Below are positions 22,386-38,452 of a DNA stretch of 51,659 bases, in pieces. The notes below the pieces were generated by a model. It worked only from the letters and a program-made list of their open reading frames with translations. It was not told where the DNA came from and ran no database searches. The stretch covers positions 1-51,659 of the forward strand of contig JAPLTF010000016.1 of the NCBI GenBank assembly GCA_026398275.1, written 5' to 3'. Numbering within the stretch: position 1 is the stretch's first letter; the number at the start of each line of letters is the position of its first letter. The position numbers and the translations under genes were made by a program. The DNA is from Verrucomicrobiota bacterium (GTDB lineage Bacteria > Verrucomicrobiota > Verrucomicrobiia > Chthoniobacterales > Terrimicrobiaceae).

Positions 22386-23411
22386 TCAACGAATACCTCG
22401 GAACCGGGCCAGATAAATAAGCCCGCCGGGAAGCGACCAGAGGAGTTCGTTCGCAACCATGAGGAGCGAGAGGGACACCACAAACTCGGCCGCACCGCCC
22501 GCCCCTCCGGATGCCGGAAGGATGTGGAGCACTTGAAAATAGTAAATCAGGACGAGCTCGCGCAGGCCGTGGCCGTTGACCGTGATCGGTACCATCATGA
22601 GCACCAGCAGCACGGGCAGGAAGATCAGCGTGTCCGCATAGGTGATCGAGAATCCGAGAGCGCGGGAAAACAGGAAAAACAGAAAGAATGAAAAGAGATG
22701 AATTCCGAATGAAAGCGAAAAGCCTGCTGCCAGCGTGCCTCCCGGCCGCACGCCCGTTTTCATGGCTTCAACAAACCTGAAAACCTGCGCACGCACGGGC
22801 AGGCGGTGCCGCAAAAAATATCCGAGCACAGCCAGAAGAACAAGAACCCCGACGGAAGCAACCGGAAGCCACGGCGGCAGGTGCCAGCCCTCGGGAAGTT
22901 TCGGGATCGGCTGGCGGAGAAGCGAGGCTCCCGCCAGCACCAGCAGCGCGGCAAGCGCCACAAGCCTGTCCACTACCACGCTCGCAACCGCCCCCGCCTT
23001 GTGGTGCGGCGAGATGCGGCAGAGATGGAAGATTTTGACAAAGTCCCCCCCGGTGTTGCCGGGAAGAACGGTGTTGAAAAACTGGCCGGCCCACGTGAGA
23101 AAAAAGACGCTTTTCCCGGACACGGAGATTCCCTGCTGGCGGATGAAAAGATGCCAGCGCATGGCGAGGAGGAATACCGGGAGGATCGTCAGGGAGGAGG
23201 CGATTGCCAAAAGCCGCCAGTCGGCATGTCTGAGAATTCTTTCCACGGACAACCAGTCGAGCTTCCTAACCACAAGCCAGATCATCCCGACGGATGCAAC
23301 GGCACGGAGGATGAAGAACGCATTTTTTCTGAGGCCGGAAGCATCCGGGACATTCCGATCACAAGCAGTGGAATCGGCCCCGGCTTCCTCGTCCCCTGGC
23401 GCGGACTTCAT
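22386..23411 (-). CDS. Flippase-like integral membrane protein (LPG-synthase TM / UPF0104)
   Basis: 341 residues with about eight membrane helices. The family signature of the lysylphosphatidylglycerol-synthase membrane domain is visible: WHLFIRQQG, LTWAGQFFNTVLPGNTGGDFVKIFH and PITVNGHGLRELVL. Members without the aminoacyltransferase domain are thought to move lipids or lipid-linked sugars. It overlaps the C-methyltransferase gene by four bases (ATGA), supporting a role in exporting the product of this operon. Confidence 0.88.
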   Translation of the reverse strand: MKSAPGDEEAGADSTACDRNVPDASGLRKNAFFILRAVASVGMIWLVVRKLDWLSVERILRHADWRLLAIASSLTILPVFLLAMRWHLFIRQQGISVSGKSVFFLTWAGQFFNTVLPGNTGGDFVKIFHLCRISPHHKAGAVASVVVDRLVALAALLVLAGASLLRQPIPKLPEGWHLPPWLPVASVGVLVLLAVLGYFLRHRLPVRAQVFRFVEAMKTGVRPGGTLAAGFSLSFGIHLFSFFLFFLFSRALGFSITYADTLIFLPVLLVLMMVPITVNGHGLRELVLIYYFQVLHILPASGGAGGAAEFVVSLSLLMVANELLWSLPGGLIYLARFRGIR

Positions 23412-25291
23412 CGGCCGTCGCCCGTGATTTCCAGCCGGTTCTCTCTCAGGATGGCAACGGTGATCTGCGAGCCGTGCTCGCGGGCGATGATATTCGCGAC
23501 CTCGTCGGAATAGCTCGCCGCCATGACGATCACCGCCTCAACGGGATCGGATACAAGGGCTGAGGGAGGAACGACCGGCAGGTGCGTTGCGGGGGTGAAT
23601 TTTCCCTGTTTAAACGGCGCGGAGTCGACCACGTAGCGGATGGAGGAGGCAATCCCCGAAAGGGCGAGAACCGCCAGCGCCTGATGCCCGGCTCCCCAAA
23701 CGGCAACCCTCCTCTCGGGATACCCTGCGACAAATTTCGCGAGCTCCTGCGAGATCGTTTGCTGGCAGCGGGAAAATTCCGACAGGTCGAGCGGCTCGCG
23801 TTTCCGCACAGCGACCGAGAGCACGTAGTCGTCGCGCAATTCCTCCGTCCCGATCACGTCAAAACCATTCCACCGCAGCGTCGAAAGAAGCGTCTCGCGC
23901 GAAAAATACAGGAGGTGGTCGGAGATAAATTCCGAGAACAGCCGCTCGCGGACCATCATGTCGAAATTCGGGACCTCGATCAGGCCGATGCCACCCGGCA
24001 CCAACTGGTCCCGGATTGCGCGAAGGGAAGCGCCCGGGTCGGGCATGTGCTCGAGAAACATCAGGAGAAAAAATGCGTCGAACGGACCGCCTGGAATATC
24101 GCCCGAGGCCGCATCGGGGTATCCCCGCGAAACCTGCAATCCGGACTCCCTGCAATGCCGGACGGCCTCCTCGGAAAACTCGATCCCGTGCGCCTCGACC
24201 GGCAGTTGGTGAAGGATCGAAAGAAACTCGCCGCGGCCGCAGCCGATCTCGATCACCTTTTTCCCCGTCAGCCCGTGTCGGCTGATAAACTCCGCAAACT
24301 GCCGGCGCTTCGCTTCGGAAAGCACTTGGGAGATCCCGGCGGCGCGGATCACCTCGCGGAAATATGGAACAGGTTCCGCCTCAAGCTGAACAAGTCCGCA
24401 CCCGGAACACTGGTAAATGTCCAAATCCACGCCTGCGTCAGCGGGCGCGTCGGAGAAAGGAGCGCGGGCGTCCCGCCCGCTTGGGGATCCGGATGCGGGC
24501 GGGACGCCCACGCTCCCGTGGCCGAGAGTGAAGCAACCGTTGCCTAGACGGGCCTTTTTGGGGTTGTCATGGATGTAGGCGAGGCACGCGGCGAAGTGGC
24601 ATTCGTTCCGGATAAGACGGTCCCAGTATTCGTGCTGCCAAAGTGGTCCGGTTTTTCCAAGGGACTTGTTGATCGCCTTTGCCGTAAAACTTTTCCACGA
24701 GTGCAGGATGTCGGGAAGCGCGAACTCCAGCCCCAGCTTGAGAAGGACATGCACATGGTTCGGCATGATCACATAGCTCACGAGATCGTAGCGTTCAGAG
24801 TCAAAGCGGGCCAGCGCATCGCCAACGATTTTTCGCAGGGCAGGATTCAGGAGCAGACAGGATCCGTGCCCGGCATCGAGCCACTCGTCGAGACGCGAAC
24901 TGAAAAGCTCATGGTACTCCCGCTCAGTTGCCTCATCCCAAGGCCTCGGGTGGTCTTTGAGCCAGGATTCCCGGGTGAGGCTCCACTCGTCGAGTTTGGC
25001 CTTCGGCAGTGCGTCGTCGAGCCGCCATGTGACAAAGCAGAAGCAGTCGGATTGGCTCCAGTGAGGAAGCTTGTGTTTGGTGACGCCGGTGTCATCGAGA
25101 GGATTGAAGAAAGGAGCGCGGGCGTCCCGCCCGCTTGAGGAAACGGATGCGGGCGGAACGCCCACGCTCCCGTCGGGGGCCGGGATGGCATCCGGAAACC
25201 CCTGCGCAGCGGCGGGCATGTTCCGGTAGCTCAGGAGCGGTTCGGGAAAGAGCGGCTGAGCGCAAACCCGGCAGTTCTTCGCGGCGCTCAT
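23408..25291 (-). CDS. Sugar C-methyltransferase with an in-frame RAYT transposase inserted
   Basis: One open frame of 627 codons. Residues 1-40 hold the first zinc pair (CRVC, 7-10) of a three-domain C-methyltransferase. Residues about 41-279 are foreign: repeat-encoded GVPPASVSSSGRDARAPF, then a RAYT (KLPHW at 74; HVH at 179-181; catalytic Tyr candidate in AYIHDNP at 239), then GVPPASGSPSGRDARAPF. The host resumes with the second zinc pair (CSGC, 295-298), the SAM loop VIEIGCGRGEF (346-356) and the C-terminal domain (VWGAGHQA). Without the insert it would be about 388 residues, close to the family norm. Both ends overlap neighbours by four bases. The host probably methylates a keto-deoxy sugar; whether it still folds is open. 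Confidence 0.85.
   Translation of the reverse strand: MSAAKNCRVCAQPLFPEPLLSYRNMPAAAQGFPDAIPAPDGSVGVPPASVSSSGRDARAPFFNPLDDTGVTKHKLPHWSQSDCFCFVTWRLDDALPKAKLDEWSLTRESWLKDHPRPWDEATEREYHELFSSRLDEWLDAGHGSCLLLNPALRKIVGDALARFDSERYDLVSYVIMPNHVHVLLKLGLEFALPDILHSWKSFTAKAINKSLGKTGPLWQHEYWDRLIRNECHFAACLAYIHDNPKKARLGNGCFTLGHGSVGVPPASGSPSGRDARAPFSDAPADAGVDLDIYQCSGCGLVQLEAEPVPYFREVIRAAGISQVLSEAKRRQFAEFISRHGLTGKKVIEIGCGRGEFLSILHQLPVEAHGIEFSEEAVRHCRESGLQVSRGYPDAASGDIPGGPFDAFFLLMFLEHMPDPGASLRAIRDQLVPGGIGLIEVPNFDMMVRERLFSEFISDHLLYFSRETLLSTLRWNGFDVIGTEELRDDYVLSVAVRKREPLDLSEFSRCQQTISQELAKFVAGYPERRVAVWGAGHQALAVLALSGIASSIRYVVDSAPFKQGKFTPATHLPVVPPSALVSDPVEAVIVMAASYSDEVANIIAREHGSQITVAILRENRLEITGDGR
24455..24519. repeat. 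Palindromic repeat, family A copy 1
   Basis: GGAGCGCGGGCGTCCCGCCCGC at the left pairs with GCGGGCGGGACGCCCaCGCTCC at the right across a short spacer (TTGGGGATCCGGAT). On the minus strand it is read through as GVPPASGSPSGRDARAPF. It has the same length and orientation as copy 2. Confidence 0.9.
25109..25173. repeat. Palindromic repeat, family A copy 2
   Basis: A direct copy of the 65-bp palindrome at 24455, differing mainly in the spacer (TTGAGGAAACGGAT) and one arm base. It marks the N-terminal edge of the RAYT insertion and is read as GVPPASVSSSGRDARAPF on the minus strand. Confidence 0.9.
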
Positions 25292-33562: not shown

Positions 33563-34888
33563 CTACCGGTGCCAGAGCTTTCCTGCGCGGCGGAGGCGGG
33601 CATAGACGAGGCCCGGTGCCTCGCCCCCGCGGGTCTCATGGAGCCGGCGGATGAGCGTGAGGGCGATGAGGTTGAGCACAAACAGCGCCAGGAAATAGAT
33701 GCTGTGCCGCCGCCAGTGAAAGGCTCCGGTCACCGCCTCGTAGGTCCCGATGAAATCCAGCGAGACGCCCCAGACAATCGGAGCCGCGCCGAGGCCGAGG
33801 CTGGTGATCACGGTGAACATCGCAAAGAAATGGTTGCGCCCCATCTCCGGCATCGTGGCCATGATGATCCGGACGTTGGCGAGGTTGAAATTCGATCCCG
33901 CAACCCCCGCGAAAAAGTTGAGCGTCCCGATCACCCACAGCGTGCAGGGAAGCACCCCGGCCGCCACCAGAAACCAGCCGAAGATCACGGTGCCGAACAG
34001 CATCAGCGCCCCGGTCATCACCGGCTTGCTCCCAGCCTCGTCCACCAGCCGCCCCACAAACGGCAGGCTCACCAGCGCCCCGATGAAGGAGATGCCGGAG
34101 AGGTAGAGAACCAGCGACACGTCGAAGTGCGGAAACTCCCGGAGATACTCGACCGTGAACACGCCCAGGCTCCCGATCACAGCCATGAAAAGCACATTGA
34201 ACCTCAGCAGCTCGCGGAATGGCGGGTAGGCAAGGATCTGCTTCCACGGCACCGGCTCGGAGGATTTGCGGACAGATTCGGAGGCGGCGACTTCGGGGAT
34301 CCGGCGGATGAAATTCAGGCTCAACGTCGCCCCGACAGCGCTCATGAGAAACACGACGGCATATTCCCACGGCTCGACCTTCCCGGTCATGACGATCGCC
34401 GAGGCCACAAGCGCGAGCAGGGATCCCGAATGCATGAAGATCTGGTCGAGCGACAGAAACCGCCCGCGGATTTCCTCGGGAATGAGGATCGTGATCCATG
34501 GCATCCACGCGGCGGACGAGATCCCGCGCAGAAGGTTGAAAACAAACAGCGACGCGAGGATCACCGCGAGCTTCGTCGTGCTGTCCAAAAACACGGCCAG
34601 CGGAACCGCCGTGATAAGAAAGATAAAAATCGTGCGCAGGCTCCAGCCCATCAGGATGAATTGCTTGTATCCATACCTGCCGAGAAATTGCGCTGCCGGG
34701 AGTTGGAAGACCGTCATCAGCGGGGTGAACGAGGCGATGATCCCCAGAACGGTCGAAGACGCCCCGATGCTTTTCGCATACAGGATGATCGGCGCACCCA
34801 GGATGATCTGAAACGAAACCGCATTGCAGAGGCTGAACCAATGGGCATTGAATGAGCCCTTGGGATAATGTCGGAGAGCCGGGTTCAC
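33563..34888 (-). CDS. Major facilitator superfamily transporter
   Basis: 441 residues with about 12 membrane helices, starting at GTG 34888 (NPALRHYPKGSFNAHW). The loop after helix 2 (FLGRYGYKQFILMGW) and the loop after helix 8 (FVGRLVDEAGSKPVMTG) are of MFS A-motif type (DRxGRR-like, degenerate). There is a charged central loop (RKSSEPVPWKQ). Substrate unknown; no neighbouring catabolic or resistance gene indicates one. Flanked by palindromes on both sides. Confidence 0.88.
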   Translation of the reverse strand: MNPALRHYPKGSFNAHWFSLCNAVSFQIILGAPIILYAKSIGASSTVLGIIASFTPLMTVFQLPAAQFLGRYGYKQFILMGWSLRTIFIFLITAVPLAVFLDSTTKLAVILASLFVFNLLRGISSAAWMPWITILIPEEIRGRFLSLDQIFMHSGSLLALVASAIVMTGKVEPWEYAVVFLMSAVGATLSLNFIRRIPEVAASESVRKSSEPVPWKQILAYPPFRELLRFNVLFMAVIGSLGVFTVEYLREFPHFDVSLVLYLSGISFIGALVSLPFVGRLVDEAGSKPVMTGALMLFGTVIFGWFLVAAGVLPCTLWVIGTLNFFAGVAGSNFNLANVRIIMATMPEMGRNHFFAMFTVITSLGLGAAPIVWGVSLDFIGTYEAVTGAFHWRRHSIYFLALFVLNLIALTLIRRLHETRGGEAPGLVYARLRRAGKLWHR

Positions 34889-35466: not shown

Positions 35467-36984
35467 ATGAACGAGAGGTATGATGTTGCATTGATCGGGG
35501 GCTCCTTTTCGGGTGCGGCATCGGCGCTCCTCCTCAAACGGGAACGTCCGGAGCTGCGGGTGATCATCGTCGAGAGGTCTGCGGTCTTCGACAGGAAAGT
35601 CGGGGAGGCGACCACCGAGGTGAGCGGAAGCTTCCTGAGCAAAAAGCTCTGCCTGACCAGCCACCTCAACCACAACCATATCGCCAAACAGGGCCTGCGG
35701 TTCTGGTTTTCAAACAGCGGCTCGGCGGATTTCGGGCGGTGCGGTGAGCTCGGGGCGCTTTATCAGGTCCGCATGCCGTCCTACCAGGTGGACCGGGAAG
35801 TTCTCGACCAGCACGTGCTCGATCTCGCGGTCGCGGCGGGCGCGGAGTTGGTCCGCCCGGCAAAAGCCGCCTCGATCGAAATCGGCGAATCCTCATCGCA
35901 GCTCGTCGTCGAATCGGGCGGCGAAAAGCGCACGATCACCGCCCGCTGGGTCATCGATGCGAGCGGGCGTGCGGCCGTGCTGGCCAGGAAATTCGGCCTG
36001 CTCAACCCGCTTCCGGAACACCCGACAAATTCCGTGTGGGCCCGATTCCGGGGGGTGAAGGATCTGGACGGCCTGGAGCTCAGGACCCGGTATCCGGGGT
36101 TTGCGCGGGCCTGCCATGCGAGCCGCACCGCAGCCACCAACCACCTGACCGGATACGGCTGGTGGTGCTGGATCATTCCGCTCAAGGGCGGCGACACCAG
36201 CGTGGGCATCGTCTATGACGAGCGCCTTTTCACTCTGCCTCCGGGGGAAAACCTCGCCTCCAGGCTGTCCGCCCACCTGATGACCCATCCGGTGGGGCGC
36301 GAGCTTTTTGCAGATGCGGAGGTCGTCCCAGGCGACGTCAAGGCCTACTCCGCGCTGCCGTATTTTTCCAGCGAGGTGGCCGGACCCGGATGGCAGATCG
36401 TGGGCGACGCCGCCGCCTTCCTTGATCCGCTCTACAGCGCTGGCCTCGACTTTTGCTCCTGGACGATCACCGCCGCCGTCAACCGGGTTTTGACCGAACT
36501 GGCCGGGCAGACCGTGGATTACAAGGATACCAACGCGCGCTTCCTCCGGTCCTACCACGGATGGTTCCAGGCTCTGATCAAGGACAAATACCATTACATC
36601 GGCGACGCCCAGCTCATGCGGGCGGCATTCCTCATGGACCTCGGATGGTTCTTCTTCGGGCCGGTCCGCGAGCTCTGCAAGTGTCCGAAGGGCGGGTTTG
36701 AACGCTTCCCGTTTGACGGTCCGGTGGACGGCGCAGTGAGCAAATTCATGGCCTTCGCCAACCGGCGCCTCACGAGGATCGCGCTGAAGCGTCGGGCCTG
36801 TGGCGTCTATGGATCGCACAACCTCGACCACCGCATGATGGTGGCGGGATTTGAACCGACGCCGAAAGTCCTCCGCATGGTCTGGCAGGGCATCAAACTC
36901 TGGCTGCGCGCGGAATGGCAGGCGCTCTTTCTGCGGCAGCATCCCGCGCCCGCCGCCAAACAAATCCCTGCTCCGGCAACGTAA
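35467..36984 (+). CDS. Flavin-dependent halogenase-like oxidoreductase
   Basis: 505 residues. FAD-binding start VALIGGSFSGAASALLL, then VGEATTE, RMPSYQVDRE and GDAAAFLDPLYSAGLDF. Two marks of flavin-dependent halogenases are visible: WCWIIP, which fits WxWxIP, and a Lys in AKQGLRFWF at the place of the catalytic Lys of tryptophan halogenases. Geranylgeranyl-reductase relatives share much of this fold, so halogenation is not proven. The next gene, seven bases on, is a UbiD decarboxylase, suggesting an aromatic or prenylated phenolic substrate for both. Confidence 0.8.
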   Translation: MNERYDVALIGGSFSGAASALLLKRERPELRVIIVERSAVFDRKVGEATTEVSGSFLSKKLCLTSHLNHNHIAKQGLRFWFSNSGSADFGRCGELGALYQVRMPSYQVDREVLDQHVLDLAVAAGAELVRPAKAASIEIGESSSQLVVESGGEKRTITARWVIDASGRAAVLARKFGLLNPLPEHPTNSVWARFRGVKDLDGLELRTRYPGFARACHASRTAATNHLTGYGWWCWIIPLKGGDTSVGIVYDERLFTLPPGENLASRLSAHLMTHPVGRELFADAEVVPGDVKAYSALPYFSSEVAGPGWQIVGDAAAFLDPLYSAGLDFCSWTITAAVNRVLTELAGQTVDYKDTNARFLRSYHGWFQALIKDKYHYIGDAQLMRAAFLMDLGWFFFGPVRELCKCPKGGFERFPFDGPVDGAVSKFMAFANRRLTRIALKRRACGVYGSHNLDHRMMVAGFEPTPKVLRMVWQGIKLWLRAEWQALFLRQHPAPAAKQIPAPAT

Positions 36985-36991
36985 TAATTCC

Positions 36992-38452
36992 ATGTCCTTC
37001 CCTTCCTTCCGCTCGTTCTGCGAAAAATTGGAGTCCTCCGGCGAACTCCGCAGAATCCCCTCGCCTGTCGCGACCGAACTCCAGATCACGGAGCTCGCCG
37101 ACCGCGAAATGAAGTCCCCGGGCGGCGGCAAGGCCCTCCTCTTTGAAAAGCCGACGATCGACGGCAGGGAATCCGCATTCCCGCTCGCGATCAATACCAT
37201 GGGCTCGCGCCGCCGGATGGCCATGGCTCTGGGCCTGGAAAAAATTGACGAGCTGGCCGACCAGATGCAGTTCCTCATGAAGGCGAAGCCGCCGCGCACG
37301 CTGAAGGAGGCGTTCACGCTCCTCCGCAACGGGATCGACGTCATCCACGCGAAGCCACGCCATGTCCGCTCCGCAGCCTGCCAGGAGGTCGTCCATGAGC
37401 CGGGCGGGAATTTCTCCCTCCACGATCTCCCGATCCTCCGCTGCTGGCCGGACGACGGCGGGCGGTTCATCACGCTTCCGACGGTGTTTACAAAAGACCC
37501 CGACACCGGCGACCGCAATGTCGGCATGTATCGGATGCAGGTCTACGACGGATGGACGACCGGCATGCACTGGCAGGTCCACAAAGTCGGCGCACGGCAT
37601 GGAAAGCGCTACTACGAACGTGGCGAAAAAATGTCCGTCGCCGTCGCGCTCGGCGGCGATCCAGCGCTCACGTTCGCCGCCACCGCCCCACTCCCCGACG
37701 GGCTGGATGAGATCCTCTTCGCGGGCTTCGCCAGGAAAAAATCCGTCGAACTCATCAAGGCGGCAACCGTCGATATCGATGTGCCCGCGAATGCGGACTT
37801 CGTCATCGAGGGCTACGTCCAGCCGGGCGAGATGCGGGCCGAGGGGCCGTTCGGCGACCACACCGGATTCTACACAAACGTGGACGACTACCCGGTTTTC
37901 CACGTCACCGCGATCACCCACCGCCGCGATGCGGTCTATCCGGCCACGATCGTCGGCATCCCGCCGATGGAGGATTTTTACATGGGCGAGGCCAGCGTCC
38001 GGGTTTTTCTGCCGGTCTTCAAAATGAATTTCCCCGAGATCGTGGACATGGCGCTCCCGGCCGAGGGCGTCTTCCACAACCTCGTCTTCGTCTCGATCCG
38101 AAAACAATACCCTCTCCAAGCCTACAAAATCATGCACGGTCTCTGGGGGATGGGACAGATGATGTTCTCAAAATACATCGTCGTCGTGGACGAGGACTGC
38201 GATGTCCACAACACCAGCGAGGTCCTCTTCCGACTCTGCGCAAATACCGACCCGCAGCGCGACACCACGTTCATCAAAAACCCGACCGACTCGCTCGACC
38301 ACGCCCCCACCGTCGCCAACATCGGCTCCCACATGGGATTCGACGCCACCCGCAAACTCCCAAGCGAAGGCTACTCCCGCGGCTGGCCGTCACTGGTGAA
38401 GATGTCCCCCGAAATCCAGACCTGGGCGGACAAATTCTCGGGTCCCGTGTAG
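36992..38452 (+). CDS. UbiD-family (prenylated-FMN) decarboxylase
   Basis: 486 residues from ATG 36992; the open frame extends upstream but overlaps the flavoenzyme. Typical UbiD segments: MGSRRRMAMALG, the prFMN-site stretch FAGFARKKSVELIKA, IEGYVQPGEMRAEGPFGDHTGFYT in outline (EGPFGDHTG), and HGLWGMGQMMFSKYIVVVDEDCDV. Members decarboxylate ubiquinone or menaquinone precursors (UbiD, MqnL) or other aromatic acids. With no ubiX or mqn gene in view, MqnL in futalosine-route menaquinone synthesis is one option and a partner of the upstream flavoenzyme another. Confidence 0.92.
   Translation: MSFPSFRSFCEKLESSGELRRIPSPVATELQITELADREMKSPGGGKALLFEKPTIDGRESAFPLAINTMGSRRRMAMALGLEKIDELADQMQFLMKAKPPRTLKEAFTLLRNGIDVIHAKPRHVRSAACQEVVHEPGGNFSLHDLPILRCWPDDGGRFITLPTVFTKDPDTGDRNVGMYRMQVYDGWTTGMHWQVHKVGARHGKRYYERGEKMSVAVALGGDPALTFAATAPLPDGLDEILFAGFARKKSVELIKAATVDIDVPANADFVIEGYVQPGEMRAEGPFGDHTGFYTNVDDYPVFHVTAITHRRDAVYPATIVGIPPMEDFYMGEASVRVFLPVFKMNFPEIVDMALPAEGVFHNLVFVSIRKQYPLQAYKIMHGLWGMGQMMFSKYIVVVDEDCDVHNTSEVLFRLCANTDPQRDTTFIKNPTDSLDHAPTVANIGSHMGFDATRKLPSEGYSRGWPSLVKMSPEIQTWADKFSGPV

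Follow-up and report, generated by a model that had tools for sequence, protein, structure and literature searches.

The stretch of DNA analysed here, referred to as the window, comprises the 51,659 nucleotides of contig JAPLTF010000016.1 (assembly GCA_026398275.1) of a Verrucomicrobiota bacterium from the order Chthoniobacterales. It harbours a gene for a flavin-dependent halogenase-like enzyme, denoted FMO1, directly followed by a gene of the UbiD decarboxylase family. The two form an isolated unit on the + strand, with an MFS-like gene upstream and small genes downstream on the other strand. The features are as follows.

35467..36984, + strand: FMO1, flavin-dependent halogenase-like enzyme, 505 residues (open reading frame (ORF) from ATG; Pfam; AlphaFold model; PDB neighbours)
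35497..35514, + strand: Rossmann motif GxSxxG, in which the second Gly of GxGxxG is replaced
35686..35688, + strand: K74, halogenase Lys column
36163..36180, + strand: WxWxIP motif as WCWIIP (W233-C-W235-I-I-P238)
36418..36444, + strand: FxxPxxSxG motif as FLDPLYSAG
36985..36991, + strand: intergenic gap of 7 bases, from the FMO1 stop to the mqnL ATG
36992..38452, + strand: MqnL, UbiD-family menaquinone (futalosine-route) decarboxylase, 486 residues (TIGR03701; UbiD_N, UbiD, UbiD_C)
33563..34888, - strand: MFS-like transporter, upstream neighbour outside the unit, named from its translation

The first-pass annotation had placed the UbiD start seven bases past the flavoenzyme, which the two reading frames confirm, and had noticed WxWxIP together with an aligned halogenase Lys, now located exactly as W233-W235-P238 and K74. 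It had also described ubiX as out of view, in agreement with the location of that gene on another contig (C37). The accompanying remark that no flavin reductase is in view holds for the ORFs that were scanned, ten of the larger ones in the window.

The pairing of FMO1 with mqnL is more than chance, because the same genes recur in the same order and orientation in all seven carriers among 213 genomes of the order. In each carrier (window genome included; the other FMO1 proteins at 57–77% identity, E ≤ 1e-183) mqnL immediately follows the FMO1 gene in the same direction; the FMO1 stop and the mqnL start are separated by 7, 29, 3, 3, 3, 1 and about 2 bases (for the last, a GTG start was judged by eye). 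Five of the paired genomes are the Verrucomicrobiaceae MAG (metagenome-assembled genome) PowLak16_MAG3, the Verrucomicrobia MAG SCN18, Spartobacteria LR76 (locus L173), Chthoniobacterales bin_113 and Terrimicrobiaceae STA_90. The close FMO1 relatives form a single clade, hereafter clade i (Shimodaira–Hasegawa-like approximate likelihood ratio test, SH-aLRT, 99). Conversely, the MqnL proteins beside them fall into two non-sister lineages, 92% versus 64–67% identical to that of the window. The MqnL proteins from the genus of the window cluster with the FMO1-unlinked MqnL of G002 and G003, two genomes of this genus that have MqnL and no clade-i FMO1, and the other five belong to a distant lineage. 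The genes around the pair likewise change from the window's genus to genus g4, G051 and G059. As both MqnL lineages and surroundings vary, the pairing either formed twice or outlived mqnL replacement and repeated rearrangement. Recombination inside mqnL left no sign as a source of the pairing, the window MqnL being closest to those of G001 and G003 over its full length. FMO1 is not required for MqnL, since G003 lacks it and still has mqnL in the same position next to the MFS gene. The occurrence of two distinct MqnL lineages in one order, and even within one family (window's genus versus g4 and g5), suggests replacement of an essential quinone gene.

The pairing is not a rule for the whole family. 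Forty further MqnL loci were retrieved for their lack of an adjacent FMO1. MqnL could be read in 38 of these, and the frequent neighbours inspected were moaA, moaC and a squalene/phytoene-synthase-like gene, all named from sequence; no frequent neighbour cluster at these loci was another mqn gene, and in one of them (L085) MqnD is found some kb away. An early idea of family-wide co-occurrence of MqnL with the FMO1 family is weak on the counts from 97 genomes (44 with both, 14 with FMO1 only, 21 with MqnL only and 18 with neither). Nine of the 14 genomes with an FMO1-family gene and no detected MqnL are less than 93% complete. G081 has a further FMO2-like flavoenzyme (for FMO2, see below) some 5 kb away from its mqnL (L111, 13299-14001).

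The UbiD protein is MqnL of the futalosine route to menaquinone, an assignment made from sequence. It scores 601.4 bits against TIGR03701, the equivalog model for the menaquinone biosynthesis decarboxylase (cut-off 495.9), has all three UbiD domains (UbiD_N, UbiD and UbiD_C in Pfam) complete, and is the sole PF01977 protein of a genome that is 98.7% complete. Partners of MqnL in the futalosine route are co-resident: the genome encodes two PF02621 proteins, one of them beside MqnE, as well as MqnE (460 bits) and UbiX, each above its cut-off. As NCBIfam returned no match for either PF02621 protein, the designations MqnA and MqnD are based on Pfam, supplemented for one protein by its position. 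The TIGR03701 score, the lack of a second UbiD and this set of partners therefore place the enzyme in the futalosine route, and passages of PMC4746308 name MqnL as the UbiD homologue of the Mqn pathway. The genes mqnA, mqnD, mqnE and ubiX are all found elsewhere in the genome, away from the FMO1–mqnL pair.

FMO1 matches the Pfam family Trp_halogenase weakly (48.5 bits, cut-off 21). Its top NCBIfam score is to QhpG (99 bits, cut-off 240), and neither the characterised halogenase model CmlS (NF033113; 74 bits, cut-off 900) nor the geranylgeranyl reductase family TIGR02032 (63.5 bits, cut-off 158.8) nor MenJ (43 bits, cut-off 700) is passed. The AlphaFold model (mean predicted local distance difference test score, pLDDT, 90) was compared with PDB structures, and the top rows are tied throughout: Bmp2 (mutant 5bul; Z 34.3, root-mean-square deviation (rmsd) 3.0, 382 residues aligned), 3nix (Z 33.5, rmsd 3.1, 388 aligned) and PltM (Z 33.3, rmsd 3.0, 435 aligned), with CtcP also among the neighbours. 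The geranylgeranyl reductase-like structure 3oz2 gave Z 27.1 (rmsd 3.4, 363 aligned). In a search of PDB sequences with a profile built from 30 FMO1 relatives, CmlS (119 bits), CtcP (106), PltA (106), CndH (105), RadH, Bmp2, PltM and kin span 77 to 119 bits, versus 36.7 for 3oz2, 36.2 for a tryptophan 5-halogenase and 29.5 for the QhpG structure 7ctq. In a tree of 57 rows, four true reductases, chosen as above the TIGR02032 cut-off, stand on one side and every FMO1, FMO2 and halogenase row on the other (SH-aLRT 99); FMO2_L145, read on the wrong strand, was left out. Because of long branches the placement of the PrnA- and PrnC-like rows relative to FMO1 is unsure.

The motifs follow the same division. 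W233, W235, I237, P238, K74 and FxxPxxSxG are invariant in all 30 relatives, and in a wider alignment K74 and FxxPxxSxG are kept in 38/38 FMO1-family rows and WxWxIP in 35/38, three clade-iii rows having A or Q in place of P. The K74 column coincides with the Lys column of PrnA-like, CmlS-like and SgcC3-like rows. The names SgcC3-like, PrnA-like and PrnC-like are our assumption, guided by gene neighbourhood; in the records these proteins are called tryptophan 7-halogenase or tryptophan halogenase family protein. All three features (halogenase Lys, WxWxIP and FxxPxxSxG) occur together in 6/6 reference halogenase rows and 0/4 geranylgeranyl reductases, the latter having YxWxFP in place of WxWxIP and no Lys at 74. 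The review PMC8407142 lists Fx.Px.Sx.G as a motif of flavin-dependent halogenases and links WxWxIP to the blocking of monooxygenation. Thus, FMO1 is supported as halogenase-like rather than geranylgeranyl-reductase-like, and the grouping with geranylgeranyl reductases that the first-pass annotation had named as a refuting result was not observed; nor was an absence of linkage to ubiD, the pairing being conserved in every clade-i genome. Judged by sequence, FMO1 most likely works like a halogenase. We nevertheless class it as halogenase-like and do not file it as a halogenase, since GxGxxG, one of the listed motifs, is missing.

More distant FMO1 relatives (39–55% identity) are common in the order, and 58 of the 97 genomes carry some FMO1; G077, the sole match of which (E 3.5e-25, 30%) is FMO2-like, was not counted as a 59th. 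Many of these relatives reside in aryl-polyene-like clusters of the xanthomonadin type, often together with a second flavoenzyme, FMO2. In L149, for example, an acyltransferase, FMO1, LolA, an MMPL exporter and FMO2 are accompanied by an AMP-ligase, an acyl carrier protein (ACP), a FabA/ApeI-like dehydratase, a polysaccharide deacetylase, two ketosynthase-type proteins, and LpxL-type and other acyltransferases. Nine named loci from Acidobacteriota, Planctomycetota and Alphaproteobacteria (L176-L184) extend the family. FMO2 is near FMO1 in five of them (L179, where only a short piece was seen, L180, L182, L183 and L184), all with ketosynthase, dehydratase, LpxL or exporter matches; in L177 FMO1 adjoins a ketosynthase, and in L176, L178 and L181 neither FMO2 nor a ketosynthase is near. 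Across the 97 genomes, 51 have both FMO1 and FMO2, 7 FMO1 only, 4 FMO2 only and 35 neither. Among the 26 genomes with clade i or ii FMO1, a ketosynthase of the C8 type (see below) is found in 25, a close-type FMO2 in 24 and MqnL in 26. G061 and G072 were scored as carrying close-type FMO2 on contig-edge pieces, and a ketosynthase piece in G088 (E 2.1e-77) was left uncounted. As related genomes are not independent, p-values for such co-occurrence overstate the case. An aryl polyene cluster on a Pseudoalteromonas megaplasmid (L189) contains a gene annotated as “tryptophan 7-halogenase”, and passages of PMC3691225 and PMC3949708 place a halogenase gene in published xanthomonadin/arcuflavin clusters. 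The cluster list in PMC3949708 includes halogenase, PS-deacetylase, exporter, LolA, acyltransferase, dehydratase, AMP-ligase and ACP.

As a side observation, a cation:proton antiporter (PF00999 or so annotated) lies near or beside halogenase-family flavoenzymes in L149 (17578-19899), L153 (2946-4214), L151 (8860-10167; named only by clustering with scanned proteins), L185 (12422-13723) and L186 (3981-5348). These loci come from Verrucomicrobia and from plasmids of Janthinobacterium and of Streptomyces globisporus C-1027, and the association might conceivably have to do with halide or pH.

In the genome of the window itself, the polyene genes identified are scattered. FMO2 is encoded on C37 (G000; L034, 1-3301), where three successive genes overlap at their ends, a xylulokinase-like gene, ubiX and FMO2, the last of them overlapping the end of ubiX; the same order is found in G001. 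A ketosynthase pair resembling a ketosynthase–chain length factor (KS-CLF) couple lies on C8 (40% and 31% to the L149 pair), and an MMPL exporter (37%) at the end of C22. Taken with the frequency of ketosynthase and FMO2 in clade i/ii genomes, the finds of FMO2, the ketosynthase pair and the exporter make it likely that this genome has a dispersed polyene pathway.

Other contacts between the two gene sets were seen across families of the order, with four futalosine-route genes (mqnL, ubiX, mqnE and mqnC) abutting three polyene genes (FMO1, FMO2 and ketosynthase). In G062 and G027, mqnE and the ketosynthase pair are divergently oriented neighbours (2/30 ketosynthase loci; L220, 396-2703, and L227, 1495-3847; one MqnE scoring 436.3 and the other 433.4 bits, cut-off 434.55), and mqnC (491 bits, cut-off 428) lies upstream of a polyene-type FMO1 in G052 (L067, 7005-10085). 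The ubiX–FMO2 arrangement, rejected as a general rule, is confined to G000 and G001 (2/30 FMO2 loci). Over 103 anchor loci, 4/6 futalosine-route genes versus 5/160 control genes occurred in a polyene-gene neighbourhood. The anchors cover 43/58 FMO1, 30/55 FMO2 and 30/48 ketosynthase genomes, with flanks of 1.5 kb, some cut by contig ends; one control gene (L111, 13299) was dropped, being itself an FMO2-like flavoenzyme. The controls are less widespread than mqn genes, and two of the positive cases, mqnL and ubiX, had been noticed before the test was made. If they are set aside, the count is 2/4 versus 5/160 (Fisher one-sided p 0.009), and p ranges from 0.02 to 0.09 with more widely spread controls. 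The wider futalosine–polyene neighbourhood link is therefore best described as suggestive.

The first-pass annotation had envisaged decarboxylation plus halogenation or hydroxylation of one aromatic compound. This proposal is not supported, given the identification of the UbiD as MqnL, the location of FMO1 kin in aryl-polyene clusters and the 14 genomes with an FMO1-family gene and no detected MqnL. Instead, at slightly better than even probability, we regard FMO1 as a flavin halogenase or monooxygenase of the polyene pathway coupled to mqnL, rather than the two enzymes as successive steps on one compound. FMO1 would stem from a dispersed, xanthomonadin-type, type II polyketide pathway for aryl polyenes, and in a small Chthoniobacterales clade it would have been joined to mqnL in a single transcription unit. 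Free FADH2 (reduced flavin adenine dinucleotide) from a separate reductase would meet O2 on FMO1, and the resulting C4a-hydroperoxide may oxidise halide to hypohalous acid (HOX) or hand on its oxygen directly. FMO2, encoded elsewhere in the genome, would act in the same polyene pathway. MqnL, with prenylated flavin mononucleotide (FMN) from the UbiX of C37, would decarboxylate the 1,4-dihydroxy-6-naphthoate unit of menaquinone. The link would then be co-expression of two chorismate-derived, membrane-bound aromatic lipids.

Several observations weigh against this polyene reading. FMO1 passes no cut-off among the 25 NCBIfam families listed, and QhpG, a monooxygenase, shares its fold. The canonical GxGxxG is missing from the window FMO1, the second Gly being A or S in 36/38 FMO1-family rows and GxGxxG present in 2/38. 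As a passage of PMC8407142 describes this dinucleotide motif as common to most flavoenzymes, its loss says more about FAD binding than about the capacity to halogenate. A polyene-cluster location was found for the relatives and not for the window gene, which adjoins no polyene gene in its own genome. The search for polyene genes in that genome covered FMO2, the ketosynthase pair and the exporter. Furthermore, G051 and G059 combine clade-i FMO1 with only a divergent FMO2 (38–39%), and the strict mqnL link together with FMO2 beside ubiX would fit a menaquinone substrate at least as well.

Such a substrate is the core of an alternative that we rate as unlikely, in which FMO1 acts in the menaquinone pathway and hydroxylates or halogenates the (demethyl)menaquinol ring or the prenylated naphthoate of MqnL, giving a modified menaquinone. 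It would account for FMO1 upstream of mqnL in all seven clade-i genomes, across two MqnL lineages and at least four neighbourhoods, for the overlap of FMO2 with ubiX in G000 and G001, and for MqnL in every clade i/ii genome. It is at odds with the 14 genomes that have FMO1-family genes and no detected MqnL (with the completeness noted above), with G002 and G003, which have MqnL and no clade-i FMO1, and with the residence of FMO1 relatives in polyketide clusters. A more serious competitor, still on the unlikely side, keeps FMO1 in polyene synthesis as a monooxygenase that hydroxylates the head group. QhpG is described in a passage of PMC7876137 as a dihydroxylase with CmlS as its closest structure, and it gives the top NCBIfam score of FMO1; position 328, moreover, is D in 38/38 FMO1-family rows and H in CmlS- and SgcC3-like rows, and the canonical GxGxxG is gone. 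Against hydroxylation stand the retention of K74, WxWxIP and FxxPxxSxG, the reported role of WxWxIP in blocking monooxygenation (PMC8407142), and the QhpG score of 99 against a cut-off of 240, with 7ctq far below the halogenases in the profile search.

The adjacency could also be a neutral accident, a single landing beside mqnL that was then carried along. The monophyly of clade i permits one origin, and G003 preserves mqnL beside the MFS gene without FMO1. Two non-sister MqnL lineages in differing surroundings imply, however, that the link outlived rearrangement or formed twice, and futalosine genes abut polyene genes in excess of controls; we therefore hold an accident to be improbable. Scarcely credible, and rejected on scores, PDB profile, tree and motifs, is a geranylgeranyl-reductase-type enzyme saturating the menaquinone side chain in the manner of MenJ. 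Its place beside mqnL would suit MenJ, and the TIGR02032 and MenJ scores, although weak, are detectable; yet they fall far under their cut-offs, 3oz2 trails CmlS widely in the profile search, and the four true family members, with YxWxFP and no Lys at 74, sit across the root of the tree from FMO1.

The product of MqnA is an enolpyruvyl ether of 3-hydroxybenzoate. It is imaginable, if rather improbable, that the futalosine and xanthomonadin-type routes of Chthoniobacterales share an aryl unit such as 3-[(1-carboxyvinyl)oxy]benzoate, effectively 3-hydroxybenzoate in masked form, or 1,4-dihydroxy-6-naphthoate, whereby an Mqn intermediate would feed the polyene starter and FMO1 and FMO2 would tailor the ring. 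According to passages of PMC3949708 and PMC4307914 that cite Zhou et al. 2013, XanB2 produces the 3-hydroxybenzoate used for xanthomonadin as well as the 4-hydroxybenzoate used for coenzyme Q. If the polyene reading of FMO1 holds, a supposed small aromatic pathway is re-identified as a meeting point of menaquinone and aryl-polyene pigment routes, and LR76 and kin become a test case for whether respiratory quinone and pigment synthesis are coupled outside the XanB2 system. The analysis also delimits, across at least four phyla, a family of halogenase-like enzymes whose flavin motif is changed. Elsewhere in the window, the ORF at 23408-25291 fuses a match to an IS200-type transposase (residues 165-242) with methyltransferase domains; it may have been called too long or may be what is left of an insertion.

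No paper bringing futalosine and menaquinone together with a halogenase was found, and none of the 12 titles listed out of 180 papers concerned a link between aryl polyenes or flexirubin and menaquinone or futalosine, in searches that left subscription literature largely uncovered; the XanB2 system, with its chorismate supply to both ubiquinone and xanthomonadin, is the published parallel. Compared with the SCO4490-type UbiD MqnL of the futalosine pathway, the window MqnL agrees in passing the equivalog cut-off, in being the sole UbiD and in its company of two PF02621 proteins, MqnE and UbiX, and differs in its apparent operon with a halogenase-like gene. CmlS, PltA, CndH, CtcP, RadH, Bmp2 and PltM, flavin-dependent halogenases of variant-B type, share with FMO1 the fold, the Lys column, WxWxIP and FxxPxxSxG, whereas FMO1 stands apart by 19–25% identity, GxSxxG, D328 and the lack of any equivalog cut-off passed. 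The Cytophaga hutchinsonii flavoprotein 3nix, without assigned function, is among the best structural matches of FMO1, at about 21% identity and with a length nearer to FMO2. Finally, like the halogenases of xanthomonadin/arcuflavin clusters, FMO1 relatives lie with AMP-ligase, ACP, dehydratase, ketosynthases, acyltransferases, LolA, exporter and polysaccharide deacetylase, a likeness in gene content; here, however, two flavoenzymes take the place of one, and the FMO1 of the window stands alone beside mqnL.

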